NCBI GenBank assembly: GCA_035651655.1
Contig: DASRFG010000028.1
Coordinates: 1-64,000 of the forward strand
DNA: 64,000 nt
Source: Terriglobales bacterium
GTDB taxonomy: Bacteria > Acidobacteriota > Terriglobia > Terriglobales > Acidobacteriaceae
Direction of reading: 5' to 3'
Part shown: positions 2,975 through 35,108 of the stretch, in pieces
Position numbering within the stretch: the stretch's first letter is position 1
Layout of the letters: each line of letters opens with the position of its first letter
Translations under genes and position numbers: made by a program
The notes under the pieces: generated by a model
What the model saw: only the letters and a program-made list of their open reading frames with translations
Database searches by the model: none
Told to the model about the DNA's origin: nothing

Positions 2975-3013
2975 GGTAAGGCGGCTGCTAAAAAGCCAAG
3001 TATACCGTGCTCA

Positions 3014-3769
3014 CTAGGCCAGAAAGATTTCTTCCTCGTGCAACTCCCTTAGCTCCGCCGGAGGGCGTAGGGGTACGCCGACAGTTCGGCCAAGCAGGGC
3101 GTCGAGTGTATCCAGCCAGCGTATTTCAGCCGCGAAGACCTTGCCGAAGTGTTGGGCCACCGATTGCGCAATCTTATCGAGGGCAAGTTGACGCTGCAAT
3201 TCTTTGTTCAACGAGGTCACTGGTCTGGAGGTAATTCCGCAGGGCACAATCAGGTTGAAATATTCCAGATCAGTGTTCACATTCAGCGCGAAACCGTGGG
3301 AGGTGACGCCGCGGGAGATGTGAACGCCGATGGCGGCAATCTTGGCGGGGACTTCACCGCTCGTCCATACGCCAGTCAATCCGGCGATTCTTTGGGCGGC
3401 GACTCCGAAATCGGCACAGGCGCGAATAATGACTTCTTCTAACCGCCGCACAAACTCCACTGCGCCGAGCTTTGGCTGGAAGCCGCGCAGATCAAAAATG
3501 GGATAGCCGACCAGCTGACCCGGGCCGTGGAAGGTGACGTCGCCGCCGCGATCGCAGTCGAAGAGCTCGACGCCCTTTTCCGCCAGCAACTCCTGAGAGG
3601 CCAAGAGATTGTTGCGGCTGGCGTTGCGGCCGAGGGTGATTACGGGAGAGTGCTCCAGCAGCAGCAGCGTATCTCCGATTCCCTCTTGTTTGCGCAGATC
3701 AACCAGCGACTGCTGAAGGCGCAGCCCGGTGGCGTAATCGAGCGTGCCGAGTTGGACGACAGAGATCAT
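3014..3769 (-). CDS. lipB: octanoyl-[ACP]:protein octanoyltransferase LipB
   Basis: Transfers the octanoyl group from acyl carrier protein to lipoyl domains, the first step of lipoate attachment on E2 proteins. The family signature RGGDVTFHGPGQ is at residues 74-85, the conserved Lys of PAKIAAIG at 143 and the catalytic Cys of VPCGI at 177. The ATG at 3767-3769 is preferred over an in-frame TTG four codons upstream because family members begin with a sequence like MISVVQLGTLDY. It starts 20 bp after the lpd stop. Its place inside the dehydrogenase run makes sense: it supplies the cofactor for the E2 that E1 and Lpd serve. Confidence 0.93.
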   Translation of the reverse strand: MISVVQLGTLDYATGLRLQQSLVDLRKQEGIGDTLLLLEHSPVITLGRNASRNNLLASQELLAEKGVELFDCDRGGDVTFHGPGQLVGYPIFDLRGFQPKLGAVEFVRRLEEVIIRACADFGVAAQRIAGLTGVWTSGEVPAKIAAIGVHISRGVTSHGFALNVNTDLEYFNLIVPCGITSRPVTSLNKELQRQLALDKIAQSVAQHFGKVFAAEIRWLDTLDALLGRTVGVPLRPPAELRELHEEEIFLA

Positions 3770-3789
3770 GGTGTCCAGCAAATCAGCAG

Positions 3790-5223: not shown

Positions 5224-5291
5224 CGCTATGAATTTCGGCCGATGGCCAAACTCATGATTCTACGATACGAGTATTAGATTCGGCGAATAGG

Positions 5292-5325
5292 GAGCCGGGT
5301 TCAGTGCCGGGCCTCCACCCGGTTC
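5292..5325. other. hairpin in the lpd/VOC divergent spacer
   Basis: GAGCCGGGT (5292-5300) and ACCCGGTTC (5317-5325) form a nine-pair stem with one G-T wobble around a GC-rich loop. It lies upstream of both divergent genes, so it is either part of the lpd 5' leader or an extragenic palindrome. No function can be assigned. Confidence 0.35.
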
Positions 5326-5360
5326 ACACGGAAGTGCCAGGAAGGCTCGAAAGGCAAAAG

Positions 5361-5366
5361 TATAAT
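5361..5366 (+). promoter_or_regulatory. candidate -10 box for the VOC gene
   Basis: A perfect TATAAT lies 41 bp before the ATG of the VOC gene. No good -35 hexamer is seen 16-18 bp upstream, so this is a tentative promoter call. Confidence 0.3.
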
Positions 5367-5407
5367 GTCCGCTAACATGCACAAAATCAGCGCGCACGAG
5401 GCTTCGC

Positions 5408-5842
5408 ATGGGTAACAGGCCGCAGAGCAACGAGGATCAGCAGACCAGTATTGCCCCAATGCTCTCGGTCCGAAACGGCGCGAAGGCGATCGAGTTTTAC
5501 AAGGCGGCGTTCGGAGCTAGCGAATTGTTCCGAATTGACGCCGAGGGTGGGGCCGTGGTCGCTCGGCTCTCCGTTGGAGGGTCAGAATTCTGGGTGGCAG
5601 ACGAGTCGCCGGAGCACTTGAATTTCAGCCCCGAGTATCTGGGAGGCGGTTCGGTACGGCTGGTGATGGTGGTCAAGGACCCGGACGCGGCTTTCAGTCG
5701 CGCCGTAAAAGCAGGAGCGACCGTGGTTCGAGCGGTTGAGGATCAGCCATATGGTTGGCGCGTCGGACGAATTATGGATCCCTTCGGACACCATTGGGAA
5801 ATCGGTAAGCCGTTGGAGGCTAATGCACCGGCCCAGGAGTAG
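5408..5842 (+). CDS. VOC (glyoxalase/PhnB-like) family protein
   Basis: A 144-residue single-domain protein of the vicinal-oxygen-chelate fold, closest in look to PhnB-like or 'extradiol/glyoxalase-resembling' proteins. Two beta-alpha-beta-beta-beta halves are visible: the first opens with the segment LSVRNGAKAIEFYKAAFGA, and the second ends with RIMDPFGHHWEIGKP, a common VOC closing motif carrying the conserved His and Glu. The metal ligands of true glyoxalase I are not all recognisable, so the substrate is unknown. It stands alone between lpd (divergent) and hemB (convergent). Confidence 0.8.
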   Translation: MGNRPQSNEDQQTSIAPMLSVRNGAKAIEFYKAAFGASELFRIDAEGGAVVARLSVGGSEFWVADESPEHLNFSPEYLGGGSVRLVMVVKDPDAAFSRAVKAGATVVRAVEDQPYGWRVGRIMDPFGHHWEIGKPLEANAPAQE

Positions 5843-5918
5843 CAGCGAATGCAGCGGAAGCGAGCAGAAGAGGAGCCAGGCACCAGGCGGGAGATGCGCC
5901 CGGTTGAGTGTTCCCAGA

Positions 5919-7025
5919 TCAGGCCAAAAGTCTCGCGGCGTCCTTGGCGAAGTAGGTCAGGATCACGTCTGCCCCGGCACGGCGGATGGCGAGCAGTGAT
6001 TCCATCATGACGCGCTGGCGGTCGATCCAGCCATTGCGGGCGGCGGCCTCGATCATGGCGTACTCACCGGAAACCTGGTATGCGGCCAAAGGCGCGTCGA
6101 AGCGTTGGCGAGCGGCAGCAATGACGTCGAGGTAAGGCAGGGCGGGTTTTACCATGATCATGTCCGCGCCTTCCTCAAGATCAAGTTCGATTTCCCGCAT
6201 AGCTTCGCGCAGGTTGGCCGGATCCATCTGATATGAGCGGCGGTCGCCGAACTGGGGCGCCGAATCGGCAGCCTCACGGAAGGGGCCGTAGAAGGCGGAA
6301 GCGAATTTGGCAGCGTAAGAAAGAATGGGCGTGTTGAGCAGGCTGGCTTCGTCCAACGCCTTGCGGATGGCGGCGACCCGGCCGTCCATCATGTCGGAGG
6401 GGGCAATGATGTCCACGCCCGCGCGCACCAAAGAAACCGAGGTGCGGGCCAAAATCTCCAGCGTGGCGTCGTTTACGATTTCATACTCAGTTGCGGCTTC
6501 CCGGGCAGAGGCGGCCGCATCGCCAGGCTGCGAGGGCTTCGTTTTAGGGACAGCGGATTTAGCTGCGGCCGCTCCCAGCGGCTTTGCCGCGGCCGCTCCC
6601 AGCGAGTTCGGAGCGCCAAGCTTGCGCACCACTCCACAGTGGCCATGCGACATGTACTCGCACAGGCAAACGTCGGCAATCACCACCATGTCAGGAATCT
6701 CACTCTTCAGTGCGCGTGCGGCCTGCTGCACGATGCCATCGTCGGCCCACGCTCCGGTCGCGACTTCGTCTTTCTTTTCCGGCAGCCCGAATAGGATTAC
6801 CGCCGGAACACCCAAAGACTTCGCCTGCCGAGCCTCCTTCACCGCCTGGTCAACCGAGAGATTGTGTACTCCCGGCATGGAGCGTACTTCGCGGCGGATG
6901 CCCTCGCCGGGACAGACAAACATGGGATAGACCAGCGACTCGGGGGTGAGGCGCGTCTCGCGGACCATGGAGCGCAGTGGCTCACTCTGGCGCAGGCGGC
7001 GCAACCGGGTAACCGGGAAACTCAT
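5919..7025 (-). CDS. hemB: delta-aminolevulinic acid dehydratase (porphobilinogen synthase)
   Basis: Condenses two 5-aminolevulinate molecules to porphobilinogen in tetrapyrrole synthesis. The zinc-type Cys triad is present (Cys120, Cys122, Cys130, in [13 protein letters not shown]), as are the Schiff-base lysines Lys240 (SYAAKFAS) and Lys293 (MVKP). It has 368 residues against about 325-335 normally. The excess is an insertion at residues 134-180, rich in Ala, Lys and Pro, between the metal-site loop and NDATLE; it contains two LGAAAAK units. ATG 7025 is used rather than a TTG two codons upstream. It faces mutS2 divergently across about 65 bp and stands as a single gene. Confidence 0.95.
6565..6604. 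repeat. two 16-bp direct repeats inside hemB
   Basis: GCGGCCGCTCCCAGCG occurs at 6565-6580 and again at 6589-6604, a period of 24 bp that keeps the reading frame. It encodes the duplicated LGAAAAK unit of the HemB insertion and suggests growth of the insert by slippage. Confidence 0.8.
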
Positions 7026-7090
7026 AGGCAAATCTTAGCACCTCACGGCCCAGCTTCCGCCGCACTCGCGATATACCATATATCCAGACA

Positions 7091-9562
7091 ATGTTGGCCC
7101 AGTCCATGCCGGTCCAGCCCCAACCTCTGCTCCACAATAGCGGGCGGGTGCTGGAATTTGAGTCAGTGCGCGATTTGCTGCGGGGGTACGCGCCGTCTCT
7201 GTTGGGTCAAACCCGGATCGCGGGCCTGGCGCCGACCAGTGACCGCTCCTGGATCGAGCGCCAACAGCGGCTCACGGAAGAGGTCCGCGAATTCCGGCGA
7301 GCCGGAGGAAATTTCGATTTCTCCGGGCTGATTGATCCCATGCGCCTGGTAGACAAGGCGCGGATCGAAGGCGCCGCACTCGAGCCCGGCGAGATCCGGG
7401 AAGTTCTAGTGGTGGTGGACCGGGCGGCGGAGTGGCGGGAAGTGGCATTGCATCCGCCAGCCGCACTGAAGTCCGACTGGATCTCTATCGCGGAGCTCTC
7501 CGCCGGAATTGCGGATTTCACTATTTTCCTGCGCGGCTTCCGCAACAAGATCCTACCGGACGGCACGCTTGACGACCGCGCGTCGCCCGAGCTGGCCGCT
7601 GTCCGCCGGGAGATCGAAAAGCAGAAGCGCCTCATTCAGGAATCGTTGCGCGGTTATGTGCGCCGGCTCGCGGAGGACGGGGCCGTGCAGGAGGAGCTGG
7701 TCACTATTCGTGGCGAGCGCTTTGTGATTCCGGTGAAGGTGGAGCAAAAGCGGCGGGTCAATGGGGTGGTGCACGGGGTCAGCTCAAGCGGCCAGACGGT
7801 CTTTGTGGAGCCGCTGGAGACCATCGAACAGAATAATGAGCTAGTGCGCCTTCTGGAGGACGAGCAGGCGGAAATCCATCGCATCCTGCTGGAGATGACT
7901 CGACTCATCCGGGAACAGGCGGATGCAATCGTCTCGGCCGCCGACGCATTGAGCGAACTGGAGTTGCAGTTCGCCAAGGCGCGGTTTGCAGAAGATTACA
8001 ACTGCGTTGCGGCGGTGATTCCGGACGGGACCCCAGGTGCGCGCGAAGCGGGGCTAGTGCTGCGCAATGCTCGCCATCCTCTGCTGGAGCGCAACCTCAA
8101 AGCCAAAGGTGGCAGGGTGGTTCCCACCAGCATTGAAATGGAAGGGCCACAGCGGCAAATCATCATTACTGGTCCCAACACCGGTGGAAAGACGGTTGCA
8201 CTAAAAACCGTGGGCCTGCTGGCGCTGATGGCGCAATCGGGAATGCCGGTGCCCGCGGAACGAGCTGAGCTGCCGATCTTTGACGCCGTGCTGGCTGACA
8301 TCGGTGACTATCAATCCATTGAGCAGAACCTCTCGACTTTTTCCGCCCACGTCACCAACATTGATTTTATTTCGCGTACTGCGACCCCACAGTCGCTGGT
8401 GCTGCTGGACGAACTGGGTTCGGCAACCGATCCCGAAGAAGGGGCAGCCCTGGCGGTGGCGATTGCAGATCACTTCCGGCAGCTGGGCGCGCTCTCCATT
8501 ATTTCCACGCACCATACCTCGTTGAAGGTTTATGGAGCGAATACGACCGGAGTATTGAACGCGGCAGTCGGGTTCAACGAGAAGACACTGCAGCCGACCT
8601 ACGAATTGCATGTCGGGGTGCCGGGGGCTTCGGCGGGAATCAACATTGCGAGCCGGCTGGGCTTGAACTCGGCCATTGTGGAGGCGGCGCGCGCCCGGCT
8701 GGGGGAGCAGACGCGAGACATCTCAACATTTCTGGATCGGCTGCATGCTGAGCTGCGCGAAGCCGAGTCTGAGCGCGGCAAACTGCAGTCCGGCGAGCAG
8801 GAGCTGGCCCGCGAGAAGGCACGCCTGGCTGCGGAGGGGATGCGCGAGCAGCGGGCCAAGGTGCGCGAACTGGAAAAGAAGCTGGATAGCGTGTTACGGG
8901 ATTTCGAGTATCGTGCCCGGGAAACGGTGAATGCGGTACAGGAGCGCGCGGCCGCCCTCAAGTTGTCAAAAGACGCCGAGCGACGCATCGCAAAATTGCG
9001 ACGGGAGTTCAAGGAGCAGTTCGATTCCGCCGTGGTGGCGCACACCAGCGGGGCGGATGTCGGCGATCCGCACGCCCGGCCGCAGGAGGTGCGGCAGGTG
9101 GCGGAGGGCGACACGGTAAAGCTGAAGTCACTGGGTCGCTCGGCTGTGATCAAGCGCAAGCTCGATGGCGAAGGCTTCGAGGTGGAGGTCGGCGCCATGA
9201 AGATGCGCGTGGGACGAGACGATATTGCAGAAGTTCTGGCGCGCGCATCAGACAATCCGGTGCAGGCTGCGAGGGCGCGCGGGGTCACGGTATCGCTTGC
9301 CAAAGACGATCCAAGCGCGTCCAGCGAAATCAATGTGATCGGGCACAATGTGGACGACGCGACGCGAGCGGTGGAGAAGTTTGTTGACCGGGCGTTCCTG
9401 GCTGGGATGCCGCGGGTCCGCGTGGTGCATGGCAGCGGCATGGGAGTTTTGCGCAAGGCACTCCGGCAATTCCTGAAGCAGCATCCGCACGTAGAAGCCG
9501 TTTCTGAGCCGCCGCAGAATGAGGGTGGAGGTGGAGCGACGGTGGTGGAGTTGAAGACCTAA
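7091..9562 (+). CDS. mutS2: endonuclease/ATPase MutS2
   Basis: MutS2-family protein of 823 residues. Known members act on branched DNA or on collided ribosomes. The N-terminal MutS core and clamp regions lack a mismatch-recognition domain, as the family requires. The ABC ATPase has Walker A GPNTGGKT near residue 361 and Walker B with LLDELGSATDP near 440. A long charged coiled coil (about 515-640) follows, and the C-terminal Smr nuclease domain (about 745-823) carries VHGSGMGVLR. All parts are present and in frame. The ATG at 7091 is the first usable start in the short spacer from hemB. Confidence 0.94.
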   Translation: MLAQSMPVQPQPLLHNSGRVLEFESVRDLLRGYAPSLLGQTRIAGLAPTSDRSWIERQQRLTEEVREFRRAGGNFDFSGLIDPMRLVDKARIEGAALEPGEIREVLVVVDRAAEWREVALHPPAALKSDWISIAELSAGIADFTIFLRGFRNKILPDGTLDDRASPELAAVRREIEKQKRLIQESLRGYVRRLAEDGAVQEELVTIRGERFVIPVKVEQKRRVNGVVHGVSSSGQTVFVEPLETIEQNNELVRLLEDEQAEIHRILLEMTRLIREQADAIVSAADALSELELQFAKARFAEDYNCVAAVIPDGTPGAREAGLVLRNARHPLLERNLKAKGGRVVPTSIEMEGPQRQIIITGPNTGGKTVALKTVGLLALMAQSGMPVPAERAELPIFDAVLADIGDYQSIEQNLSTFSAHVTNIDFISRTATPQSLVLLDELGSATDPEEGAALAVAIADHFRQLGALSIISTHHTSLKVYGANTTGVLNAAVGFNEKTLQPTYELHVGVPGASAGINIASRLGLNSAIVEAARARLGEQTRDISTFLDRLHAELREAESERGKLQSGEQELAREKARLAAEGMREQRAKVRELEKKLDSVLRDFEYRARETVNAVQERAAALKLSKDAERRIAKLRREFKEQFDSAVVAHTSGADVGDPHARPQEVRQVAEGDTVKLKSLGRSAVIKRKLDGEGFEVEVGAMKMRVGRDDIAEVLARASDNPVQAARARGVTVSLAKDDPSASSEINVIGHNVDDATRAVEKFVDRAFLAGMPRVRVVHGSGMGVLRKALRQFLKQHPHVEAVSEPPQNEGGGGATVVELKT

Positions 9563-9573
9563 CCGAGCGCGGC

Positions 9574-11295
9574 TCAGTCCGCGGTTGCCGCCATTGCTTT
9601 TCCTTTGGCTTTGTTAGAGGCGCTCGCCAGCAGAGCTTTCCCTTGCAGCGTGGAAGAGCTTTTTCCTGATCCGTCATGGGTCCTTAGTTTGAAACTGCCC
9701 ACAAGTTTCTGCAGATCAATGGCCAGCCCGGAGAGATCCTGGCAAGCTTTGGCGGCATCTTCCGCGCGTCCCGCGGAATCGTGAACTATTTTCTCAATAC
9801 TCTCAAGGTTCCTATTCACCTCCTCGGTCGCACTCGACTGCTCCGTAGAAGCGGACGCTATCTGAGTAATCATGGAGCCGACCTCCTCCGCCATCTGAAT
9901 GATTTCTTTGAGGGAATCGCCCGCTTTGGCAGTCGTCAGAACTCCTTCCTCGGCTTGTCTGGTTCCAGCTTCCATGGCACGAACCGACTTCTGGGTTTCG
10001 TCCTGCACCTGCTTGATCATTTGTGCAATTTCCTTGGTGGCGGTCGTGGTCCTTTCGGCCAGTTTGCGTACCTCGTCGGCCACCACGGCAAAGCCGCGGC
10101 CTTGCTCTCCAGCACGAGCGGCTTCAATAGCGGCATTGAGCGCCAGCAGATTGGTCTGGTCGGCGATATCGTCAATTACATTGATAATGCGGCCAATGTG
10201 GTCAGAACTTTTTCCCAGTGCGGTGATTTTCTGTCCAGTGCTGCTGACGGATTCCGCAATGGCGCGCATTTTGACGAGAGTCTGGTTGACAATGTCGCCT
10301 CCAGCGCGGGCGGTTTCGGAGGCATTTCGCGCGGCTCCCGCTGCCCTAGCTGAGTGTTCGGACACTTGCAGGACGGTGGAGGACATTTCCTGCATCGCCT
10401 TGCCGACCAGCAAAGCCTGCTCCTTCTGAGCGGCTGCGCCTTGTGCTTGTTGGCTGGCGCCGGAAGATATCTGATCGGTCGCGCTCGCAACATGTTCAGC
10501 GGTGCCGGCGATTTGGGCGACGATATCGTGCACTTTCTGGATGAACATGTTCAGCCATTTTCCTAATTCGCCGATTTCATCCTTGCGGTCTTCATCCACT
10601 CGCCATGTCAGATCGTTGGCGCCCTTGGCCATTTCCTCGAATAAGGCGGAGAGCGACGCCAAGGGTCGAGTGATGCTGGCCGTGGTGCGCAAGGCGATGA
10701 CCAGTAGCAGCAGAAGGGAAAGGCCACCCATTACGAACATAAGGTGGATGGCGCGTGAGGCCTTAATATTGGCACTGCGCTCGGCGTCCTTGGCCTCAGT
10801 TTCGAGCTGGTCGCTGGTGACTTCAATTTTTTGCTGAAGGTCTTTATATAGCTGCAGGAAATTGCCGAGCTGTGATGCGGCGGCGCTGGGGTTGTGAACG
10901 ATGGTGTCCACCAATTCCTGGCTACTGGTGATGTATTGCTCGGTGAGGCGGTGTTCGTCGGCAAGATTGGCCTGCATGGTGGAGCTCACTGCCAGCATTC
11001 TCGCCTTAGCCATTCGTTCTTTGAGCAACTTGGCATGCTGGAGGAGTTCTTCCACCTTATTCTGCTGGTCCTCTCCTTTGTGCATGAAGACGGCAGAAAC
11101 GTCTGCCCGCGCCATATCGAGATAAACGCCGGCTTCGACGTGGTTTCGAATAGCTGAACTGGTGGCCGACACCTCAGCGATTGTTTTTGTGACGGTAGAA
11201 ATGCCCCAGTATCCAGCCGCGCTCACGGCCGCCACAAATATCAGGCCGCTAGCCGTCATGCTCAACAGTTTTCGTCTAATGGTCCAGCCCACCAT
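9574..11295 (-). CDS. methyl-accepting chemotaxis protein
   Basis: Transmembrane chemoreceptor of about 573 residues. TM1 covers about 8-28 and TM2 about 183-203, enclosing a helical periplasmic sensor of about 150 residues (four-helix-bundle type). A HAMP domain follows, then a long coiled-coil signalling domain whose tip reads [19 protein letters not shown], the CheA/CheW contact. No C-terminal NWETF-like CheR pentapeptide is seen; the tail is Ala/Lys/Ser-rich. ATG 11295 has GGTGGGA at good spacing; GTG 11307 is an alternative. It is the third gene of a compact operon behind a porin and a PstS-like protein, which hints that the periplasmic protein could present a ligand to it. Confidence 0.9.
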
Positions 11296-11322
11296 ATGGC
11301 TTCCCACCCTTTAGTTGGTTGC

Positions 11323-11835
11323 TTACAGTTTTAGCTTGTAGCCTGAGTCGCTGGGGGACAGCCCGTCCACTTTGACCGTTTTGATGGCGCCATCGGAAGC
11401 GTCACCATGTAGATCGCTAGCGCGAACGAAGCCGACACCGCCGGGTGAGGAAGCGACAAAAGACCGCACGTCACGCGAGCTGCTGACTTCTTTGGGAGGA
11501 GAAACAATCTTGCCGGTGAAAGCGGCTTGCACAAAGTATTTGTTGAAATCGGCCTCTTTCATGCCGCAAACGATTTTCAGGAAGGCAACTCGGTCGGCCT
11601 GGCCGCTGGCCGGCATTACTGGCGCTACGGATTTTCCGGTGTCCCAGCGGCTGCGTTCGGCCAGGAACAGTTTGCGGATTTCTGAGGTGGTGAGATTGTC
11701 CACCGGGTTGGAGTTGTTCAAGATCACTACGATGCTTTCGTCGCCAGCGCCAAGAGCAGGAGGGGCCCCGACTATCGCCCAAGCGATGACTCCAACCAGG
11801 GGCAGCATTCTATAGAAGAGCCGGTGATTGTTCAT
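11323..11835 (-). CDS. PstS-like periplasmic substrate-binding protein (short form)
   Basis: A 170-residue secreted protein: signal peptide about 1-27 (hydrophobic, ending near GAGDES), then a phosphate-binding-protein-like fold. Family marks are NNSNPVDNLTTSEIRKLFL near the start of the mature part, FLKIVCGM in the middle and SSPGGVGFVRASDL near the end. It is about half the length of true PstS, matching the short PBP-like domain proteins often annotated as phosphate ABC transporter substrate-binding proteins without ABC genes. The ATG at 11833-11835 has GAGGAG upstream; an upstream in-frame extension has no such site. It lies 10 bp behind the porin gene and about 27 bp before the MCP. Ligand unknown. 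Confidence 0.8.
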   Translation of the reverse strand: MNNHRLFYRMLPLVGVIAWAIVGAPPALGAGDESIVVILNNSNPVDNLTTSEIRKLFLAERSRWDTGKSVAPVMPASGQADRVAFLKIVCGMKEADFNKYFVQAAFTGKIVSPPKEVSSSRDVRSFVASSPGGVGFVRASDLHGDASDGAIKTVKVDGLSPSDSGYKLKL

Positions 11836-11845
11836 TTCGATCTCC

Positions 11846-13123
11846 TCAGAACGTAAATGCAAATTGCGTCGCCAAGCCGTTACTGCTGGGGCCGCCGCGA
11901 ACCTCCACCCGGTCATACTGGAGCTTTACGGCCGCATAGTCGCTGAAGTCGTAGCGAATTCCGGCGGAAGGACCATTTTTACGGCCTACCTCAGTTGCGT
12001 CCTCCGCATCGCTGTAAATCGGGTCACGTGCGTTGGCGTTCATGTATGAATAACGAAAGTACGGGCGATAACTGCCAAAGCGCCGCGAGAATTGGGTATA
12101 CCAGCCGGGGTTATAAAAAACTGGTCCGTCATGCTCGTCGGTGTGGCGTACCAGAAGGGCCTCATTGAGGAACTCATACTCGGAGGTTTGATAGACCACA
12201 TGTGCCGCCATAATGGACTCTTTATGATTTATGGCGTCCGGAAAGGTCAGGCGGTCCTGATAGTAGGAGAACCCGGTTTGCAGACCGGAAACCCAACTGG
12301 GGCGTGAGAAGATGGCGAGATTGAAAGACTTGCCATTATTTGAGTCCACAATATTCTGGGCCGGCTCAGAGCCGAGCAAATGCGACCGACCGTTACCGAT
12401 CTCAGCCACATAATGCAAGCCAAGTCTTCCCGAAGGAATCGTTCCGTGGGTGGTGACCCCTACCTCTTGCAGAGGCAAAAAACCGCCATGATCGTCAAAC
12501 TCATACATGAAAGGGCGGCCGATGGCGGTCTGGAACCATTGTCCCTGGTGAAATGCGGTGTTGTAGTAACCGATTGAGGAGTGGTAGCGCCCAACTGCGA
12601 AGTTGAAGTGCTCATCGTGCTCATACTGGAACAACAATCTTTCCAAATCGGTATTCACCGCATTGTCTTGAGTGGAGATAAAAAGCACTTCTCCAAGCAG
12701 AGAAATCTTATCGGTGAGGCGCGATGTGGCAAACAGGTCGAAAGAGCCAATATGGAAGGCGTTGGTTGAGCCCTTATGATCAGTGGCGGCATAGCCTACG
12801 TCGCCAAAAATGTGCATCTGCAGTCTGCTTCCTTGGGCCGCGGGCCTCGGTGTCTCTGGCGATTGCGCCTCCACAATTGCAGGAGCTGGGACCGCCACTG
12901 GCGCCGAAGGATTAGACGCTTGCTTATCCTCCAACTGCTTGAGCCTGGCTTCCAGTTCGCGAATACGATCCAATAATTGTTTACTGGTTTCATCCTGACT
13001 CGACGTCGAATTCGCCGCCTGCTGTGCAAAGGATGGAAAACCCCACAGGAGACACAGGAGCAGACACACGACCGTTAATTTGCGGGCGCCGATTGAACAT
13101 AGGTTTCGCATTATCGTATTCAC
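11846..13123 (-). CDS. outer-membrane porin-like beta-barrel protein
   Basis: A 425-residue exported protein. The signal peptide (about 15-34) ends at FAQQ and is followed by a short coiled coil at about 45-65 (LDRIRELEARLKQLEDK), which resembles the periplasmic trimerising helix of phosphate-selective and sugar porins. A Pro/Ala linker and a barrel of alternating aromatic strands follow; the last strand ends in FAFTF with a C-terminal Phe, as needed for barrel assembly. It is the promoter-proximal gene of the porin/PstS-like/MCP operon. Substrate cannot be read from the sequence; the anionic-solute idea comes only from the neighbour. Confidence 0.75.
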   Translation of the reverse strand: MNTIMRNLCSIGARKLTVVCLLLCLLWGFPSFAQQAANSTSSQDETSKQLLDRIRELEARLKQLEDKQASNPSAPVAVPAPAIVEAQSPETPRPAAQGSRLQMHIFGDVGYAATDHKGSTNAFHIGSFDLFATSRLTDKISLLGEVLFISTQDNAVNTDLERLLFQYEHDEHFNFAVGRYHSSIGYYNTAFHQGQWFQTAIGRPFMYEFDDHGGFLPLQEVGVTTHGTIPSGRLGLHYVAEIGNGRSHLLGSEPAQNIVDSNNGKSFNLAIFSRPSWVSGLQTGFSYYQDRLTFPDAINHKESIMAAHVVYQTSEYEFLNEALLVRHTDEHDGPVFYNPGWYTQFSRRFGSYRPYFRYSYMNANARDPIYSDAEDATEVGRKNGPSAGIRYDFSDYAAVKLQYDRVEVRGGPSSNGLATQFAFTF

Positions 13124-13362
13124 CTGCGGTGCACACCTCGGTCTTCAAGGTGGCTTAGATTGAACACACGGTTATCTTCGGCAGCAGCCCGGCTTGGCTT
13201 TATAGGTAACTGCTAGGTAGCAAGCTTGGAGAGTGGAGTAGGGAGATCAAAATGAACACTTAGGTACGGGGAAGGTTGGGGTTGAAACAATGGTCCAGCG
13301 CTGCAACCGATGTGCGCGCCACTGATTGCGAACCGTGGTCGGGGACTGGACAGAGTACAGGC

Positions 13363-15468
13363 TTACTCTTCCACTACTACCGCTTCGCCGCGCTCTGCCT
13401 TCACCTGAGCGATGATCTTCTCCTGCAACTGCTGCGGGACAAGATCATAGTGGGCCATTTCCATGTGGAAAGTGCCGCGGCCTTGTGTCATGGAAGTGAG
13501 ATCAACCCCGTAGGTGAGCATCTCCGCCATGGGCACTTCGGCTTTGATCAAAGTTTTGCCGCCCTTGTTGTCCATGCCCTGGATGCGGCCACGGCGGCCG
13601 TTCAGGTCGCCCATGATACTGCCGGCAAATTCATCAGGCACCGTGATCTCAACCGCCATGATGGGCTCGAGCAGCGTGGGTTTGGCTTGTTCCATGGCGG
13701 CGCGAAACGCCAGCCGGCCGGCGAGTTGGAAGGAGAGGTCGTTTGAGTCCACGTCGTGATATTTGCCGTCATATAGGATCACCCTGAAGTCCACCACCGG
13801 ATAACGGGCCAGGTAGCCGCGTTCGGCGGTATCGCGGATTCCCTTCTCCACCGCAGGGATAAAGTTTTTGGGAATGGCGCCGCCGAAAATATCGTTGACA
13901 AACTCGAACCCCGCGCCCCGCGGCAATGGCTCCATTTTGATGCGGCAGACGCCGAACTGGCCGTGGCCTCCGGTTTGTTTCTTGTGGCGTCCTTCTACGT
14001 CAGCCTTTCCCCGGATGGTCTCGCGATAAGGCACCTTGGGGGCCTTGAGGTTGACTTCCGTGTGATAACGCTTCTTGAGCTTCGACACCACGACCTCGAT
14101 GTGCTGCTGACCGGTTCCGGCAATCAGGAATTCTTTGGTCTGCTCATCACGGAAGAAGCGCAACATGGCGTCTTCCTCCATCAGTTTGTGAATGCCGTTG
14201 CTGAGCTTGTCTTCGTCGGCTCGGGTCTTGGGTTCAATGGCAAATGTAATGGCGGGCTCGAGCAGGCTAACTTTGGGAAATTGTATGGGGCTCGATTTTT
14301 CGCTCAGGGTGTCGCCGGTGAGGGTGTCTCTTAGTTTTGCCACCGCGCCGATGTCGCCGGCATGAAGTTCGGTGACCGGAATGGCGTTCTTGCCCTGCAT
14401 CACGGAGAGGTGCGAGAGCTTCTCGCTGGTGTTGCGGGTGAAGTTCTGCAACGTGGCATCGTTCTTCAAAACTCCGGAATAGACCTTGAGATAGGAGATT
14501 CGTCCGGCAAATGGATCAGAGACGGTTTTGAAGACATATAAGGAGACGGGCTCGGAGTCGGCAATCTTCCGGGTCGGCGGTTCGCCGTTATTGGGGGTAG
14601 CGATGGCCTTTACCGGAGCGCGATCGGTAGCTGCCGGCGCGTACTCCACTATGAAGTCCATGGCGAGATCGGCGCCGATGTTGCCCAGTCCAGAGGTAAA
14701 CAGGACCGGGAAAATGCGATCCTCGCGGATGGCGTCGTGCAATGCTGGGACGAGGTCTTCTACAGGAATAGTGCCTTTCTCAAAAAATTCTTCCATGAGC
14801 GCGTCGTTGCCTTCGGCAATCATTTCGACCAATTTTTCGTGCGCGCTTTGCACCGCGTCGGCCATGTTGGAGGGGATTTCAATCTCTTTCCCTTTTCCGC
14901 TACCGCCCAGTTCATAGCTGTAAGCCTTCATCTTCACCAGGTCCACGAGGCCGCTGAGGTTCTTCTCACTGCCGATGGGAAACTGCACCGGCATTACGGC
15001 GCGCCCGAAGGCCGCGCTCAGCGATTGCAACACACGGCTGGCGTCGGCACGCTCGCGATCCATGCGGCTGGCAATGATGATGCGCGGCAGATTGACCTCT
15101 TCGGCGAAGCCCCACACGCGGTCGGTGACCACTTCAACGCCGGAGACGCCGTCCACCACGACGGCCACCGACTCGACCGCCGGCATGGCCAGCTTGGCCT
15201 CGTGCACGAATATGCTGAATCCGGGAAGATCAATGAGGTTGATTTTGCTCTTGCCCCATTCGGCAACGGCCAGAGTTCCGGAGATGGACATCTTGCGGGC
15301 AATTTCTTCTTCGTCGTAGTCGGTGACGGAGGTGCCGTCATCTACGCGGCCCAGGCGCGGAGTTGCGCCGGCTGTGGCCAGCATGGCGGAGACCAACGAT
15401 GTTTTGCCGGCGTGGCCATGACCGACCACCGCTACATTACGGATATTTGCGCCTTCATAGGTTTTCAC
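13363..15468 (-). CDS. elongation factor G-like GTPase (EF-G paralogue)
   Basis: A 701-residue translational GTPase with all EF-G domains: G domain, domain II, domains III-V with the TGGHGQFG segment of domain IV and a complete C-terminal domain. G1 is GHGHAGKT. The G3 box, normally DTPGH, reads DLPGF, so the His that positions the hydrolytic water is replaced by Phe, and the G4 NKxD reads SRMD. These changes fit the EF-G2/'elongation factor G-like' group rather than the housekeeping translocase, so a canonical fusA should exist elsewhere. No rpsL, rpsG or tuf neighbours are present. Divergent from the Cys/His-rich peptide gene. Confidence 0.88.
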   Translation of the reverse strand: MKTYEGANIRNVAVVGHGHAGKTSLVSAMLATAGATPRLGRVDDGTSVTDYDEEEIARKMSISGTLAVAEWGKSKINLIDLPGFSIFVHEAKLAMPAVESVAVVVDGVSGVEVVTDRVWGFAEEVNLPRIIIASRMDRERADASRVLQSLSAAFGRAVMPVQFPIGSEKNLSGLVDLVKMKAYSYELGGSGKGKEIEIPSNMADAVQSAHEKLVEMIAEGNDALMEEFFEKGTIPVEDLVPALHDAIREDRIFPVLFTSGLGNIGADLAMDFIVEYAPAATDRAPVKAIATPNNGEPPTRKIADSEPVSLYVFKTVSDPFAGRISYLKVYSGVLKNDATLQNFTRNTSEKLSHLSVMQGKNAIPVTELHAGDIGAVAKLRDTLTGDTLSEKSSPIQFPKVSLLEPAITFAIEPKTRADEDKLSNGIHKLMEEDAMLRFFRDEQTKEFLIAGTGQQHIEVVVSKLKKRYHTEVNLKAPKVPYRETIRGKADVEGRHKKQTGGHGQFGVCRIKMEPLPRGAGFEFVNDIFGGAIPKNFIPAVEKGIRDTAERGYLARYPVVDFRVILYDGKYHDVDSNDLSFQLAGRLAFRAAMEQAKPTLLEPIMAVEITVPDEFAGSIMGDLNGRRGRIQGMDNKGGKTLIKAEVPMAEMLTYGVDLTSMTQGRGTFHMEMAHYDLVPQQLQEKIIAQVKAERGEAVVVEE

Positions 15469-15706
15469 GAGCGACTCCTTTGATCATGCCAGACGCCTGT
15501 TGCGTCGGTGGAGTCCCGTCGGTTGTGTAGGCGGGATACGGGCGCCCGGCAGAGGGCCTGCCAAAACCTCGATGCTACCACGGCTGGATTTGGAGGCTCA
15601 ATAGAGGGTTGGAGGGCAGACAGCAGCCGGGTTGAGCATTCGACACGCGGGCCACAAAGCGGTAACCTGAGTCGGTTTGCCCCATCTGAACGTGAGCAAC
15701 CCGCCC

Positions 15707-16042
15707 ATGCAGCGCTTCGTCGTCAGGTTGTTTATGCCTCTGCTGCTGTGGGGGACGTTTGCTCCGCTGGCGCTAGCGCAAACGCAGAGGCAGGCGCATA
15801 GCTGCTGCGTTCGGAAACAGCACAGCTGTTCCACGACGCATGATGCCGGTTTCCAAGCTGCTGATTGTTCACACCGCTGTTGCCGAGGGTTGGCGGTGCG
15901 GCGTAGTGCGCTTCCGGTGGCTTCGATTTCGGCAAGGTACGACAGCCGCGCGACTGTCGCTGCGGATTTAGTTCCTGCTTCTGCGCGAGCCCTCATTTCC
16001 GCTGGTACTCACTCCTCCAGAGCCCCACCTGTAAACGCCTGA
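15707..16042 (+). CDS. small secreted Cys/His-rich protein
   Basis: A 111-residue product with a good signal peptide (about 1-25, basic start, Leu-rich core, cut near LALAQ). The mature part begins with dense Cys and His: HSCC, KQHSC, a lone C and CSHRCC within about 40 residues. A Ser/Ala-rich tail follows. I do not recognise a named family, but the layout suggests metal binding or disulfide-rich folding outside the cytoplasm. ATG 15707 is chosen because the signal peptide starts there; a TTG ten codons upstream is less likely. It sits 120 bp before a TonB-dependent receptor on the same strand, a suggestive pairing. The 240 bp upstream, back to the EF-G-like gene, hold no other gene. Confidence 0.6.
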   Translation: MQRFVVRLFMPLLLWGTFAPLALAQTQRQAHSCCVRKQHSCSTTHDAGFQAADCSHRCCRGLAVRRSALPVASISARYDSRATVAADLVPASARALISAGTHSSRAPPVNA

Positions 16043-16161
16043 TCAATCTAAGCTGCAATGTGTGTTGGTGACGTGCCTACATCCGCCCAAACGAAGCTTG
16101 GACGGGGCACCCACGGACGCGGCGTTTTTGGAAGGGCACTCTGGCGCCACAGGAGAAGTTC

Positions 16162-18378
16162 ATGCGATGCATCTTCGCGTTCTGCGGAATAGCGATCATG
16201 TTGTTGTCGGGAGAAGCAAGCGCGACCATTTTCGGTAGCATTCGTGGCCTGATACACGACCCGCAACATCGGCCAGTTCAGGGCGCACAAGTCACCCTGA
16301 GCGCGGCGAACTCCGCGTGGACGAAGTCAGGCAGCAGCGACGATTCGGGGAGCTTTCGTTTTGACGCGGTGCCGATTGGTGAGTACAAGGTCACGGTGAC
16401 GAAACCGGGATTTGATTCGGTTACACAGACGGTTGTCGTCAAGTCAGACAGCGAGCCGATCCTACATTTTCAGCTCTACCTGCCCAAGCTGTCGGAAACT
16501 GTGAACGTCTCTGGCGAACCGGAAGCGGCCCAAACCGCCGAATCCGCGACTCCTTCGACGCTGGTGAATCGAATTGATGTTCAGCGCACTCCCGGGGCGG
16601 ACCGCACTAATAGCCTGGCAATCATCACCAATTTCGTTCCCGGATCCTACATGGTGCACGACCAATTGCACGTTCGGGGCGGCCATCAGGTGAGCTGGCT
16701 GATTGATGGGGTACAGGTCCCCAACACCAATATTGCCAGCAACGTGGGGCCGCAATTCGATCCGAAAGACATTGACTACCTTGAGGTGCAGCGCGGCAGT
16801 TATGAGGCGCAGTACGGTGACCGGACTTATGGCGTATTTAATGTGGTGCCCCGCACCGGCTTCGAGCGGAATAACCAGGCCGAGCTGGTTACAACATTCG
16901 GCAACTTCAAGCAGACCAACGACCAAATTAATTTCGGTAGCCACAGCGAGCGCTTTGCTTATTACGGCAGCCTGAACGGGAACCGAACCGACCTGGGTCT
17001 TGAAACTCCAGTTGGCAAAATCATTCACGATGCTGCAAACGGATACGGTGGGTTTGGCAGCTTTATTTACAACATCAACCAGGCCAATCAGCTGCGATTA
17101 GTTACGTCAGCGCGTCGCGACTACTATCAGGTGCCGAATACGCCAGAGCAGGAAGCCACGGGCATCCGCGACGGGCAACACGAGGGCGATGCCTTCGTTA
17201 ACTTTTCCTGGGTGAGGACCTTCGGTTCAGGAGTCCTGTTGACGGTGTCGCCTTTCTATCACCACAACAGCGCCAATTTCGACGGTGGAGCGAATGACTT
17301 CCCGGTCAGCACCACCGATCACCATACGTCAGAATATGCCGGAGGCCAGGCCACGCTGAGCGCCAGCTTATGGCGCAACGATGTGCAGGCCGGGTTTTAC
17401 GGATTTGGCCAGCGCGATAATCAATTCTTAGGTTTGACGTTCAATGACAACAGCAGTCCCGATCTGCGGGAGCGCCAGAAGATTGCCGGAAGTGTTGAAG
17501 CCGTATTTCTGGAGGACAAATTTAAGGTCACGCCCTGGCTGACAGTCTTGGGGGGTGTGCGTCAGACTCATTTCTCCGGCGCAATTGTGGAGAACGCAAC
17601 CAGCCCGAGGGTGGGCGCTTCCCTGCGGGTCCCTTATCTGAACTGGGTGTTCAGAGGATTCTACGGGAAGTTCTACCAACCGCCTCCTCTGATCACAGCC
17701 TCAGGCCCGCTGCTCCAGTTTGTGAACAGCCAGAACCTGGGGTTCATCCCGCTCCATGGAGAGCAAGATGAAGAACACCAATTCGGGGTGACAATTCCGT
17801 TCAAAAACTGGACTCTTGACACGGACTATTTCCGGACGCGTGCCCGCAACTATTTCGACCACAACAGTGTGGGCAACTCCAATATTTTCTTTCCGCTGAC
17901 CATTGATGGGGCTTTGATTCGGGGGTGGGAAACGACCTTACGCTCGCCCCGAATTGGGGGCCGTGCCCAAATTCATCTGGCATATTCCAATCAAATTGCC
18001 CAAGGCCGTGGAGGAATCAGCGGGGGGCTGACTGACTTTTCCCCGCCCGCAGGCTTCTTTCTACTCGACCACAACCAGCGGCACACGCTCAACGTGGGCG
18101 CGGACATTAGTCTGCCGTGGCGAACCTTCGCTTCGACGAACGTGTACTACGGCTCCGGATTTGCCCTGGAGGACGGTCCGCCCGACCACTTGCCTGGCCA
18201 CACGACGGTGGACCTTTCTCTGGGCAAGGAGTTCGGAGAGAGACTGGCACTTTCGGTGAACGCGTTGAACGTGGCGAACCGGCACCTGTTGATAGACAAC
18301 AGCTTGACCTTTGGGGGAAGCCACTACAACAATCCGCGGGAGATTTATGTGGAGCTGCGCTACCGGTTCAAGTACTAG
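16162..18378 (+). CDS. TonB-dependent receptor with carboxypeptidase-regulatory-like N-terminal domain
   Basis: A 738-residue outer-membrane transporter. The signal peptide (about 1-22) is followed by a carboxypeptidase-D regulatory-like beta sandwich (about 25-110, starting at GSIRGLIHDP). The plug domain has RGGHQVSWLIDGVQVPNT near 175 and YEAQYGDRTYGVFNVV near 215, and a 22-strand-type barrel ends in ELRYRFKY with the aromatic terminus typical of secreted barrels. No TonB box can be named with certainty. The preceding small Cys/His-rich secreted protein and the following DsbA-like gene suggest a metal or thiol theme, but the substrate is unknown. Confidence 0.9.
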   Translation: MRCIFAFCGIAIMLLSGEASATIFGSIRGLIHDPQHRPVQGAQVTLSAANSAWTKSGSSDDSGSFRFDAVPIGEYKVTVTKPGFDSVTQTVVVKSDSEPILHFQLYLPKLSETVNVSGEPEAAQTAESATPSTLVNRIDVQRTPGADRTNSLAIITNFVPGSYMVHDQLHVRGGHQVSWLIDGVQVPNTNIASNVGPQFDPKDIDYLEVQRGSYEAQYGDRTYGVFNVVPRTGFERNNQAELVTTFGNFKQTNDQINFGSHSERFAYYGSLNGNRTDLGLETPVGKIIHDAANGYGGFGSFIYNINQANQLRLVTSARRDYYQVPNTPEQEATGIRDGQHEGDAFVNFSWVRTFGSGVLLTVSPFYHHNSANFDGGANDFPVSTTDHHTSEYAGGQATLSASLWRNDVQAGFYGFGQRDNQFLGLTFNDNSSPDLRERQKIAGSVEAVFLEDKFKVTPWLTVLGGVRQTHFSGAIVENATSPRVGASLRVPYLNWVFRGFYGKFYQPPPLITASGPLLQFVNSQNLGFIPLHGEQDEEHQFGVTIPFKNWTLDTDYFRTRARNYFDHNSVGNSNIFFPLTIDGALIRGWETTLRSPRIGGRAQIHLAYSNQIAQGRGGISGGLTDFSPPAGFFLLDHNQRHTLNVGADISLPWRTFASTNVYYGSGFALEDGPPDHLPGHTTVDLSLGKEFGERLALSVNALNVANRHLLIDNSLTFGGSHYNNPREIYVELRYRFKY

Positions 18379-29049: not shown

Positions 29050-29187
29050 CTGCTAAAATTGCAAGTTTTTTAGAATCCGCTAACCCTCGCAACTTACTGC
29101 AAGATACCTAACCGTTGAGAAATCCCCGTCTGACCTTTATTCCAAACCGAGTGCGTTTGCCGACTTAGACTAGTTCACGCCAGAGCT

Positions 29188-29249
29188 GCACTTGACGCGG
29201 TCCGGACGAACGTCATAGTCTCCGGGCCCGCATACCCCCTGAGGAATGT
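29188..29249 (+). repeat. repeat module A, left copy
   Basis: 62 bp matching 30582-30643 in the same orientation with three mismatches. It begins with the shared core (CTTGACGCGGTCCGGACG) and includes the palindrome CGGGCCCG. The stretch 29050-29489 contains no supported gene, only this copy and an inverted module B. Confidence 0.85.
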
Positions 29250-29349
29250 GCGATGGCGGAACGGGAGGTGTGCTGCACACGTGTACACACTTCCACTTCT
29301 GCCTTCGCATATTCCCCTGTATTCATAAGGGTGAGAGCGCTATGGCATG

Positions 29350-29426
29350 CGTCCGAGCCGCGTCAAGTGAGGGTCCAAACAGCGAAGTTCGGAACGGAAA
29401 GATGAACGAACCTATGCGAGGGAGAG
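29350..29426 (-). repeat. repeat module B, left inverted copy
   Basis: 77 bp that match the reverse complement of 30527-30602 with five mismatches and one indel. It lies 64 bp beyond the stop codon of the hydrolase gene. Its outer end is the same core (CGTCCGAGCCGCGTCAAGTG) that opens module A at 29188, so the core occurs three times in 1.4 kb. Confidence 0.88.
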
Positions 29427-29489
29427 TCCCCAAAACCCTGCTTCATCCCGTAGGCATTTTAAGCTGTGCTAGTGGTGAGAAGGGCTGTT

Positions 29490-30488
29490 TTAGGGTAGCG
29501 AAGTCGTTGGGTGCGTCGACTCTTTGACAAGTGCAAGCCACTCGGTCGCAAGTTGATGCGACGGAAGCCAGCCAGACGGAATCATGTCTGCCGGAGCAGC
29601 ACGCCCGACCCGCTGAATACTGGCGTCACACGCATCCCAAGTCGGTGTACCCCAGTCGTCGTACACCTCCGACGGGCACGTGCGAATGTATCCTACCCAG
29701 CCGCGGCTATCGTCGATCTTGCGCAACGGCTTCGTTGGGGACGGGTGGCGCAGTTTGATGATCTGGTCAAGCCACGCGAGTATCAGAGATTTCACATTGA
29801 TGATGCAGCAGTGTGGCGTCTTATTCTGAACGAGGAATGCCCAAGGAGCACCACGGTCTCGATACTGACGGAAGTAGTTGTAGGGGCGTTGAGTGCCGGA
29901 AATCTTGTCCGCACCTCCCGTCATAATCAGTTCAGGAACGGAGATGGCATCAAGGGAAAGGTGTACGTTGTCAATTCCAACCGGATCGTAATGACCGGGA
30001 TCGGCGGGAATAGATGCCACAACACGATCCGGCGCGTAACCGACGAAGTGAGCAAACAGAGCCCCCGTTCCTGAGAAGCCGAGCAGGATCAGCTTCGCTG
30101 AAGATAGTTCGGCATGGCCAGACTGATGGGAGAACTGGTCCAGAGCTGTAAAGAGGGCGCGCCCAACACCATGCGACGGGTCCATGTCCATCTCTTTCGG
30201 TCCGCCAGGGGCACTCTTTGCAGGGCACTGGTGCGGCATCATCAGTGCGAGATCGTTTCGCCGCGCAAATGCGACCACATCGGGATCGGAATAAAACTTC
30301 ATAATGTCCTCTCCTCGGTCGAAGGTCACCCAAACGGCTCGAACTGCACGCTGCCCAGCAGGCAAGGTAAGGTCATAGTGACAGGGCACTGCGAGCGTCT
30401 CGCTCGCTAGTGGGGCAACAGTGGTTTCGAACGACTGCGCATGGGCAAGCGAGGTTTGTATGGTCAATGCAATCAAAATCCAGCGCAC
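29490..30488 (-). CDS. secreted alpha/beta-hydrolase-like protein
   Basis: A 332-residue exported protein with a signal peptide (about 1-18, ending AHAQS). The nucleophile elbow GFSGTG near residue 138, the following Asp/His candidates (GGADKI near 190, and KTPHCC near 222) and the strand pattern indicate an alpha/beta hydrolase, probably an esterase or dienelactone-hydrolase relative. Cys pairs (HCC; CPSE with WDACD) may form disulfides. Substrate unknown. The gene is isolated and bracketed by a 77-bp inverted repeat whose right arm lies 38 bp upstream of the ATG, as if gene and flanks had moved or been rearranged together. Confidence 0.72.
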   Translation of the reverse strand: MRWILIALTIQTSLAHAQSFETTVAPLASETLAVPCHYDLTLPAGQRAVRAVWVTFDRGEDIMKFYSDPDVVAFARRNDLALMMPHQCPAKSAPGGPKEMDMDPSHGVGRALFTALDQFSHQSGHAELSSAKLILLGFSGTGALFAHFVGYAPDRVVASIPADPGHYDPVGIDNVHLSLDAISVPELIMTGGADKISGTQRPYNYFRQYRDRGAPWAFLVQNKTPHCCIINVKSLILAWLDQIIKLRHPSPTKPLRKIDDSRGWVGYIRTCPSEVYDDWGTPTWDACDASIQRVGRAAPADMIPSGWLPSHQLATEWLALVKESTHPTTSLP

Positions 30489-30526
30489 CTGTCTCTCCTG
30501 TCAAACCAAAGATCTGATTGTAAGGC

Positions 30527-30643
30527 CTCTCCCTCGCATAGTTCGTTCATCTCTCCGTTCCGAACCTCGCTGTTTGGACCCGCATTTGACGCGGTTCGGA
30601 CGAACGTCATAGTCTCCGGGCCCGCATACACCCTGAGGAATGT
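30527..30643 (+). repeat. full repeat unit (module B plus module A), right copy
   Basis: Module B occupies 30527-30602 and module A 30582-30643; they share the core at 30582-30602. This is the only place in the window where both modules are joined, so it may be the intact form. It lies upstream of the minus-strand hydrolase gene and may contain its promoter region. Confidence 0.85.
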
Positions 30644-31182
30644 TTTTCAGGGACTGAACGGTCGGGCCATGAAGAAAAAACTCAACATAATCGCAATCTC
30701 AACACGTTTTTTGCGATGCCCTGCGCAACAAGAAGGGTTTCCGAACGCTGCGAACCGTTTCTGCCGAACGGCGCGAATTTTGCCGAGATGTCCGCTTTAA
30801 GCTAAAGAACTATATTTTGAAAATGTGAAAGATGGGCCCCCGGATCCTCGACGTTTTCGCCAAATTATGAGAGTTTTCAGTAAACTCAGCATTTTAGTGG
30901 CAAAAATGAGCCAAAATTGCCCCCAATAAGCTGGTGAGAAGAGGGTTTCTCGCCAGTAACCGGCAGCGCTGAGCTACTTTGCAATCCAAACGACAAAGGT
31001 GAAGATCGTCCTCTTCGTATTGCCCGGTGATCTCCCAACATCCGAGCGTGGGAAAGTTGATTCCGGTGAGCATGTACTGCTGATCTGGCTTTACAAAAGC
31101 GTTATTGGCGCGGTCAGCGAGAAGTGGCGGAGCCGGGGCTTCCAGGCGTTTACCGGTGACCCTCAGTTTCGGCTCTGGCTCT
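30644..31182. other. intergenic stretch with an AT-rich tract and a hairpin
   Basis: About 540 bp without a convincing gene. 30790-30930 is AT-rich for this genome. CTGGTGAGAA (30931-30940) pairs with TTCTCGCCAG (30947-30956) around a six-base loop, ten pairs with one G-T wobble, but no T-tract follows. An open frame of 68 codons (30999-31205) has no signal peptide, family likeness or ribosome site and is not called. Confidence 0.45.
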
Positions 31183-31434
31183 CTACGCCAGACCTAGAAC
31201 TATGAACGTGTTCAAGACCATACGTAGCCGACTCTTAGGGTAAAACTGTCGGTGTAGTCTCTCAACTCTTGTTAGCAGCCCCGGATACCCAAACAAAGGA
31301 CCTATCTGTTCCTGCTCCGTCAGTTTTGCATTAACTTCTACTCTCATGAGGTAAAACAGCCAGGAGCAAATCACAGCAGAAGAGAGTGCACAGGCGAACC
31401 AAAAAACGAAGTGAATCGAAGTAAATTCAGACAT
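31183..31434 (-). CDS. small membrane protein of unknown function
   Basis: An 83-residue product with one strong hydrophobic segment (about 8-31, HFVFWFACALSSAVICSWLF). A short charged region, a cluster of basic residues (VERLHRQFYPKSRLR) and a second weakly hydrophobic end follow. The charge pattern suits a small inner-membrane protein. I recognise no family and no clear ribosome site, so the call depends on composition alone. Confidence 0.45.
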   Translation of the reverse strand: MSEFTSIHFVFWFACALSSAVICSWLFYLMRVEVNAKLTEQEQIGPLFGYPGLLTRVERLHRQFYPKSRLRMVLNTFIVLGLA

Positions 31435-31621
31435 GTCAGTGACACCCTTGGCGGGCAGCGAATAAAAGGAGATCCGGCTTCAGCTATGAAATGGGCGATA
31501 GAGACATTCCCGTCAGTCGCCAGCGAGGCGCCGTACCTTTCAGCACTTCAAAACCAGATGGTCATCCTGAACGGGCGCCTCTTGAATCTTTTTCCTGTAC
31601 ACTAAGGAGAAGATACCCCTG

Positions 31622-32167
31622 ATGACGCATCTGACAGTCGGCATCCTCCTTATAACTGCTGAGGTCTGCGTCGCCCAAAGTCACGGTAGTGCATCGAACG
31701 GGCTTGCCGCTACTTCCACGACTATTAAGCATGACCACCAATGTGTCAATTTGTTTGTGGGCATTAGCAGGAAGCCCAAGGATCAAGCTTCGCAAACGCT
31801 GGGCAAGGATGATGTTGAAGTTTATATGGGTTTAAGTCCCAATTGCGGGCATGGTTTCGGAACCCTCCGAACAGGCGTCTGGCCTGAGTTCTCGAAAGAT
31901 TTGCGCTTCAAGTTTGCATTCTCGAAAGGAACGGAGCCGCACGACACTCAGCCCCAACCCCTTTCAGGTAGGCTGACTGAAGACAACACTCCGGTTTGGC
32001 GCGAATCCGGGAGCACACGGACGTTGAGATTCATATTGGATGATTTGCCGCCCGATACCCCTGGGGAACTCTTTATAACAGTGTTATCGGCGGAAACGAG
32101 GCTAACACAGCTGAAATTTAGAATCACCGTGGGCCGTGGCAACAAGCCTAAACAAAACAGGAGCTAG
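31622..32167 (+). CDS. secreted protein of unknown function
   Basis: A 181-residue product beginning with a likely signal peptide (about 1-19, cut near VCVAQ). The mature part has two Cys (QCVNLF and PNCGHG), many polar residues and a beta-rich pattern, with a basic end (GRGNKPKQNRS). No family is recognised. AAGGAG lies upstream at a rather long spacing. It is the last gene of the lower-GC block before valS, from which it is separated by 140 bp containing C- and T-rich runs. Confidence 0.6.
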   Translation: MTHLTVGILLITAEVCVAQSHGSASNGLAATSTTIKHDHQCVNLFVGISRKPKDQASQTLGKDDVEVYMGLSPNCGHGFGTLRTGVWPEFSKDLRFKFAFSKGTEPHDTQPQPLSGRLTEDNTPVWRESGSTRTLRFILDDLPPDTPGELFITVLSAETRLTQLKFRITVGRGNKPKQNRS

Positions 32168-32306
32168 TGGGTACCGGGGGGTGCACTTTCAGAGGGCCCT
32201 ATCTCCTATCCCCCCCGTTTGACCCCCTTTTTTCCCCGCCTGTAATATCAATCTTTACCCTCCATGGTGGTTCCCGGTGTGCGGTTAGGGACCAGCCCTG
32301 AACAAT

Positions 32307-35108
<2,802 letters not shown>

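Follow-up and report, generated by a model that had tools for sequence, protein, structure and literature searches.

The window analysed here, a 64,000-nucleotide stretch of a Terriglobales bacterium (contig DASRFG010000028.1), contains a gene for a putative secreted hydrolase that stands between long repeats, which raises the question of what these repeats are and whether they ever carried the gene. A preliminary description of this DNA had reported direct and inverted copies around the gene, built of two modules (A and B) with a core of about 20 bp common to all sites, and had offered three readings: a non-autonomous mobile element, a site of inversion of the hydrolase gene, or a family of structured RNA or promoter elements. 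Our comparisons bear out the repeats themselves. Site 1 (29183-29249, plus strand) and site 3 (30577-30643, plus strand) are direct copies identical at 62 of 67 positions (93%, BLAST E 2e-19), while site 2 (29340-29429, minus strand) matches 30524-30612 (plus strand) as an inverted copy with 89% identity over 90 bp and one gap (E 4e-24); with such E values in local comparison, chance is excluded. The common core is also real and measures about 20-30 bp, 29189-29218 and 29340-29369 being mutually inverted copies. Two features go beyond the preliminary description: 29189-29370 is a single imperfect palindrome of 182 bp, and module B consists in part of sequence from upstream of the hydrolase gene. 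Site 3 is composite, its B side resembling site 2 and its A side site 1.

Inverted arms of about 90 bp directly outside a gene could form an inversion switch, in which the arms recombine and flip the hydrolase gene. The arms differ by about 10%, however, no integrase is among the matches listed on the contig, and a flipped gene would lose most of its conserved upstream region; the proposed inversion is thus unsupported, and we regard it as highly improbable. The preliminary description had also held that a lack of further copies in the genome would reduce the arrangement to a local rearrangement. A whole-genome search indeed found none in the rest of the 4.07-Mb source genome, but other genera contain homologous copies at non-orthologous sites, which counters that conclusion.

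An exact 32-mer of the repeat had no match in the GTDB contigs, and the 131-bp unit, searched against 300 family genomes at E<=10, gave almost only chance matches; BLAST in relatives found 71% identity over 107 bp in one genome (G025, E 7.7e-7) and shorter matches in two others (G146, G054; G, C and L numbers denote our genomes, contigs and loci). A profile search assigned site 2 (29262-29377, minus strand) to an element of about 127 nt, here called E, with homologues also in G092 and others. The alignment of E homologues (A2) comprises two modules, M1 (TGACGCGG..ACGCATGtCATAGCGCT..CCGCATgAA) and M2 (GGTGTGTACA..CACACTaTCCC). R1, a sequence-only profile model of E, was run on 398 genomes of the Acidobacteriales family and gave clear matches in about a dozen, each of these other than the window genome having one or two copies. 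When GTDB genomes were scanned for the M1 core pattern, three Acidobacteriales genomes came up together with chance-like matches, and the IMG/VR contigs with the E core pattern gave short chance-like matches. Two E-bearing contig starts (L119, G205:C89; L120, G381:C146) are identical in genomes of different assigned genera, which may reflect contamination or recent transfer. In the window, the cassette reads M2, M1 and B on the left, then the hydrolase gene, then B and M1 without M2 on the right:

29182-29288, plus strand: site 1, a second arm of E-like type (M1 and linker) that faces site 2 and forms the palindrome's left half; R1 profile match of 40 bits, 93% identical to site 3 over 67 bp
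29189-29370, no strand assigned: imperfect palindrome of sites 1 and 2, 67% self-complementary (E 8e-20), RNA fold z = -8.0 on the plus strand
29262-29377, minus strand: site 2, an E-type, casposon-like end; R1 profile match of 90 bits (E 2.8e-25), a score on which it bears that the profile was partly built from this site
about 29262-29296, minus strand: outer module M2 of site 2, with the outer GGG/CCC at left
about 29300-29377, minus strand: inner module M1 of site 2
29371-29429, minus strand: module B, inverted copy on the 3' side of the hydrolase gene, 89% identical to 30524-30581 within the 90-bp match
29490-30488, minus strand: secreted alpha/beta-hydrolase-like gene (open reading frame, 332 aa) with a GFSGTG motif and a signal-peptide-like start; GTG start at 30488, stop codon at 29490
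30524-30561, plus strand: module B on the 5' side of the hydrolase gene, conserved upstream sequence; DNA homology with G058 stops at 30561
30562-30643, plus strand: site 3, the M1 part of an E-type end without the outer M2; R1 match of 33 bits at 30575-30644

The strong fold of the window copy would suit a structured non-coding RNA or a small RNA gene. This fold, however, stems from a palindrome peculiar to the window genome (z is -0.8 in G025), the structure conservation index is 0.18 on both strands, and Rfam returned only chance microRNA matches for the region; hence, we give this reading hardly any credence, and it is the RNA half of the third proposal that falls. Two related candidates were rejected, namely a conserved RNA (no conserved fold across E homologues) and a small coding gene within E (no conserved reading frame).

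The genes adjoining E differ between genomes, so that its copies occupy non-orthologous sites, and most copies elsewhere are solo ends. What they share is the sequence next to them: in 13 of the 15 E copies outside the window, the outer CCC is followed by a 14-mer of the form GTCAA-N9 or N9-TTGAC (the exceptions being the copies of G349 and G060), while only 3 of 1931 CCC sites in the window fit this rule. In G044, two outward-facing copies of a different end type, T2, lie 16.5 kb apart and, like the two E copies of G217 described below, share one 14-mer in opposite orientation. Complete casposons in relatives account for these 14-mers; casposons are rare DNA transposons that work with Cas1, an enzyme of CRISPR type. 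Six elements (L173, L217, L218, L219, L222, L224) emerged from a blind scan for pairs of inverted ends with short direct repeats on either side, and all have perfect 14-bp duplications. Complete elements in relatives measure 5-16.6 kb, have inverted ends starting with GGG and are flanked by exact 14-bp target duplications containing GTCAA/TTGAC. An intact gene for a casposase, the Cas1-type enzyme, lies inside five of the six (L222 has a fragment inside and an intact gene outside), and polymerase genes lie inside L173, L218, L219 and L224 and outside the ends in L217. The polymerases are homologous to each other and match PHROG DNA polymerase (E 1e-9 to 1e-11), with no Pfam match. The largest element (L173, G044:C8:79000-98900, 1057-17662; 16.6 kb) lies beside the promoter of a Ser/Thr kinase, has GTCAACCGTCGCCC as its 14-bp duplication and encodes a Cas1 protein (Pfam E 4e-32), an HNH-like protein and a family-B-type polymerase with the motifs DFxSQYP and DTDS (PHROG DNA polymerase, E 2e-10). 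In the PDB, the Cas1 of the relatives matches 6OPM, a chain to which the casposase structure paper refers, and its catalytic E, H, D and E are invariant across 11 casposases; such proteins occur in 18 of 175 sampled relatives and in 11 of 79 genera. The defining features of casposons are a Cas1 that stands alone, a polymerase of family B, inverted ends and duplications of about 15 bp (PMC4046053). The complete elements have a stand-alone Cas1 with its catalytic residues, usually a family-B polymerase, and inverted repeats with a 14-bp duplication, and they are casposons; 14 bp is also the experimentally measured duplication of the Methanosarcina mazei casposon (PMC6977970). One genome (G146) holds two complete casposons with different end types, L219 (C53, 2118-16927) and L218 (C23, 9371-19256), and additionally another truncated casposase and a solo E.

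Read in one of its two orientations, the 14-bp duplication ends with TTGAC, the core of the promoter -35 box. In L224 (G081) and L218 (G146) the promoter TTGACC-N-TGTAAGATC follows immediately after the 14 bp, and in L224 it is the promoter of valS, the valyl-tRNA synthetase gene; this element (G081:C4, 1785-18186) is a complete casposon exactly at the valS promoter. Casposon-type ends lie upstream of valS at equal distance in G006, G026, G047, G052 and others, and ends adjoin each other across one target copy in L174, L182, L218, L222 and L224; such sets of ends can resemble tandem arrays. L182 (G047:C5) has two copies of the 14-mer GTCAAACTTCCAGC at valS, at 1519 and 9840, each followed by a casposon-type end, and looks like a tandem array 8.3 kb long. 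A further casposon-type end was seen in L224 across the outer target copy. In relatives, the valS promoter is a recurrent casposon target, a hot spot. In the window it lies about 1.6 kb to the right of the cassette, which ends 1.66 kb from valS itself:

32180-32212, minus strand: casposon-type end T3 (GGGATAGGAGATAGGGCC...) beside the valS promoter; pattern at 32195-32212 with 0 mismatches and none in shuffles
32219-32248, plus strand: valS promoter, with TTGAC at 32219-32223 and TAATAT at 32243-32248; casposon target in relatives
32307-35108, plus strand: valS (open reading frame), with homologues in 88 of 100 family genomes

In L218, L222 and others, ends of the T3 type adjoin copies of the 14-bp target; in the window, the T3 end is separated from the end of the valS -35 TTGAC by 11 bp and not by 14 bp.

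About half of the E copies lie directly upstream of sigma-70-like promoters, among them those of valS, a kinase gene and a tRNA-Met gene, and the modules are conserved across genera. E could hence be a cis-regulatory module, a binding-site array above strong promoters kept under selection, of which the window repeats would be copies. Copies that number one or two in a genome and stand at different genes make no regulon, though; other E copies lie between convergent genes, most valS promoters have no E, and regulation would leave the 14-bp direct duplications and the casposase-bearing parents unexplained. We consider this reading very unlikely, and an early candidate, a valS regulatory element, was dropped after the 14-bp duplications were seen. 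The promoter half of the third proposal stands insofar as casposon ends often lie just upstream of promoters, because integration takes place at promoter -35 regions. In L183 (G060:C224, 2205-2242), an M2-like end was noted just upstream of a tRNA-Met gene promoter.

What ties E itself to casposons is its outer module. In G005 (L174), a T2 end stands opposite an E-type M2 end, with AGGCTGGGTTTGAC, a 14-bp target, between them, and on the E side follow a polymerase (7836-10865) and a casposase (11966-13546); the contig stops before the other end, and the E-type end there shows M2 only. GGG...TACAC(A)CC is the layout common to the outermost 37 nt of E and T2. The link carried by this outer module is strong. 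None of the elements examined is an assembled casposon with full E (M1 and M2) at both ends. Two contigs of G217 each bear an E copy; the two copies are accompanied by one and the same 14-mer, oppositely oriented, and have at least 36 inner bp in common, which suggests an E-type element with long inverted ends of at least 150 bp; no overlap was found that would make these contigs one element, and the one casposase match in this genome is on a contig not joinable to them. Gene fragments beside E in G092 and G217 had hinted at a tyrosine-recombinase attachment site, a candidate rejected as other E copies have none nearby.

The window locus has terminal inverted repeats of casposon type, namely an E-type left end and a truncated right end, and we hold a casposon origin of these repeats to be very probable. 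The preliminary description was right that no transposase is present: a whole-genome search found no casposase gene in the window genome. The casposon polymerase had no match among the window ORFs, and no 14-bp target duplication was found around the cassette. There is no second cassette in the source genome, and the relatives examined share no left neighbours with the HEAT-valS interval of the window. As for the gene, searches of Pfam, NCBIfam and PDB gave no match, so that its name rests on the motif. Homologues occur in 16 of 397 other family genomes, a patchy distribution, and none was found inside the casposons examined in relatives. DNA homology with the closest of them, in G058, spans 29490 to 30561 and then stops; about 38 bp of module B (30524-30561) are therefore hydrolase upstream sequence also kept in G058, where no casposon end was found.

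This conserved B sequence, the solo state of most E copies and the missing target duplication would fit a history in which E is casposon-derived and the hydrolase was never cargo: a solo end came to lie beside a resident gene, whose upstream region was then carried, with part of the end, to the other side of the gene by a local inverted duplication. Such a history needs a coincidental inverted copy exactly at the other side of the gene, however, and against it stand the long inverted ends suggested for G217 and the patchy hydrolase gene, which in G058 is on another contig than valS. We consider this history as a whole unlikely. The reading we consider likely places the hydrolase gene in the remnant of a casposon that has decayed and has no casposase, beside the valS hot spot. 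Whether the gene was cargo of a non-autonomous casposon is close to evenly balanced, and the more specific version, a transposase-less mini-casposon with hydrolase cargo moved in trans by promoter-targeting Acidobacteriales casposases, is plausible though somewhat doubtful. Of the three early proposals, the non-autonomous mobile element is the best, and its repeats match casposon-type terminal repeats; the hydrolase gene itself is presumed to have been mobile.

The repeats would then be terminal inverted repeats of a casposon group in this Acidobacteriales family. A casposase-less or decayed casposon with the hydrolase gene would have come to rest beside the valS hot spot, its movement supplied in trans by a casposase made elsewhere. 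In the relatives, the 14-bp duplication preserves the -35 box of the target gene, and insertion would in this way leave the promoter intact. Later, the left end may have doubled into the palindrome, perhaps by fold-back copying via an M2 hairpin, while the right end would have lost M2 and both target-site copies vanished; exchange between the inverted cores could yield the mosaic of site 3. We infer that an old accretion derived from casposons covers about 29182-32212 at the valS hot spot, and the cassette is probably immobile today.

MITEs and mobile insertion cassettes consist of a short element or a passenger gene between inverted ends, with no transposase gene. The window cassette differs in that its ends would derive from a Cas1-dependent element, not an insertion sequence, in its low copy number, and in having no surviving target duplication. 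With the family 3 casposons of bacteria (AceAut-C1 type; PMC4046053; PMC9939771), the relatives' elements share a stand-alone Cas1 with zinc-binding and probable HTH C-terminal parts, a family-B polymerase, an HNH-like protein, terminal inverted repeats and duplications of about 15 bp, a likeness in features; the window copy differs in having no casposase. Known casposons integrate into tRNA or aEF-2 genes at the 3' end, or at a variety of other places (PMC4046053; PMC9939771), whereas those of the relatives target the promoter -35 region (N9-TTGAC), often that of valS. The casposons of M. mazei and Aciduliprofundum boonei have in common with them a 14-bp (14-15-bp) duplication, short inverted ends, site-specific integration and an end terminating in C, but are archaeal, with tRNA gene targets and the target motif CGCA (PMC6977970). 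In the open-access literature we found nothing relevant on casposons in Acidobacteria or on non-autonomous casposons. Casposons as such are known; a promoter-targeting Acidobacteriales lineage with decayed or non-autonomous derivatives, fairly common in the family, is one of which we found no description in the open literature.

CRISPR adaptation is proposed to stem from casposons, of which the literature covered gives few bacterial examples; here, a lineage occurs in about a tenth of the sampled genomes (18 of 175) of one bacterial family. With a target rule as simple as 9 bp plus TTGAC at promoters, above all that of valS, this lineage would give new casposases to test and a natural succession of older and younger insertions at a single essential gene. 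Moreover, casposon insertion at promoters would parallel CRISPR spacer integration beside the leader. Short conserved motifs above strong promoters in these bacteria may, as a caution, be transposon ends and not regulatory sites. In one relative (L121, G107:C85), E lies at 7559-7654, and 3.7 kb inward comes a near-copy of its 14-mer, with 1 mismatch, and then GGGTTAGGCT; the interval between them encloses a large permease-like gene and is possibly another casposase-less cassette.
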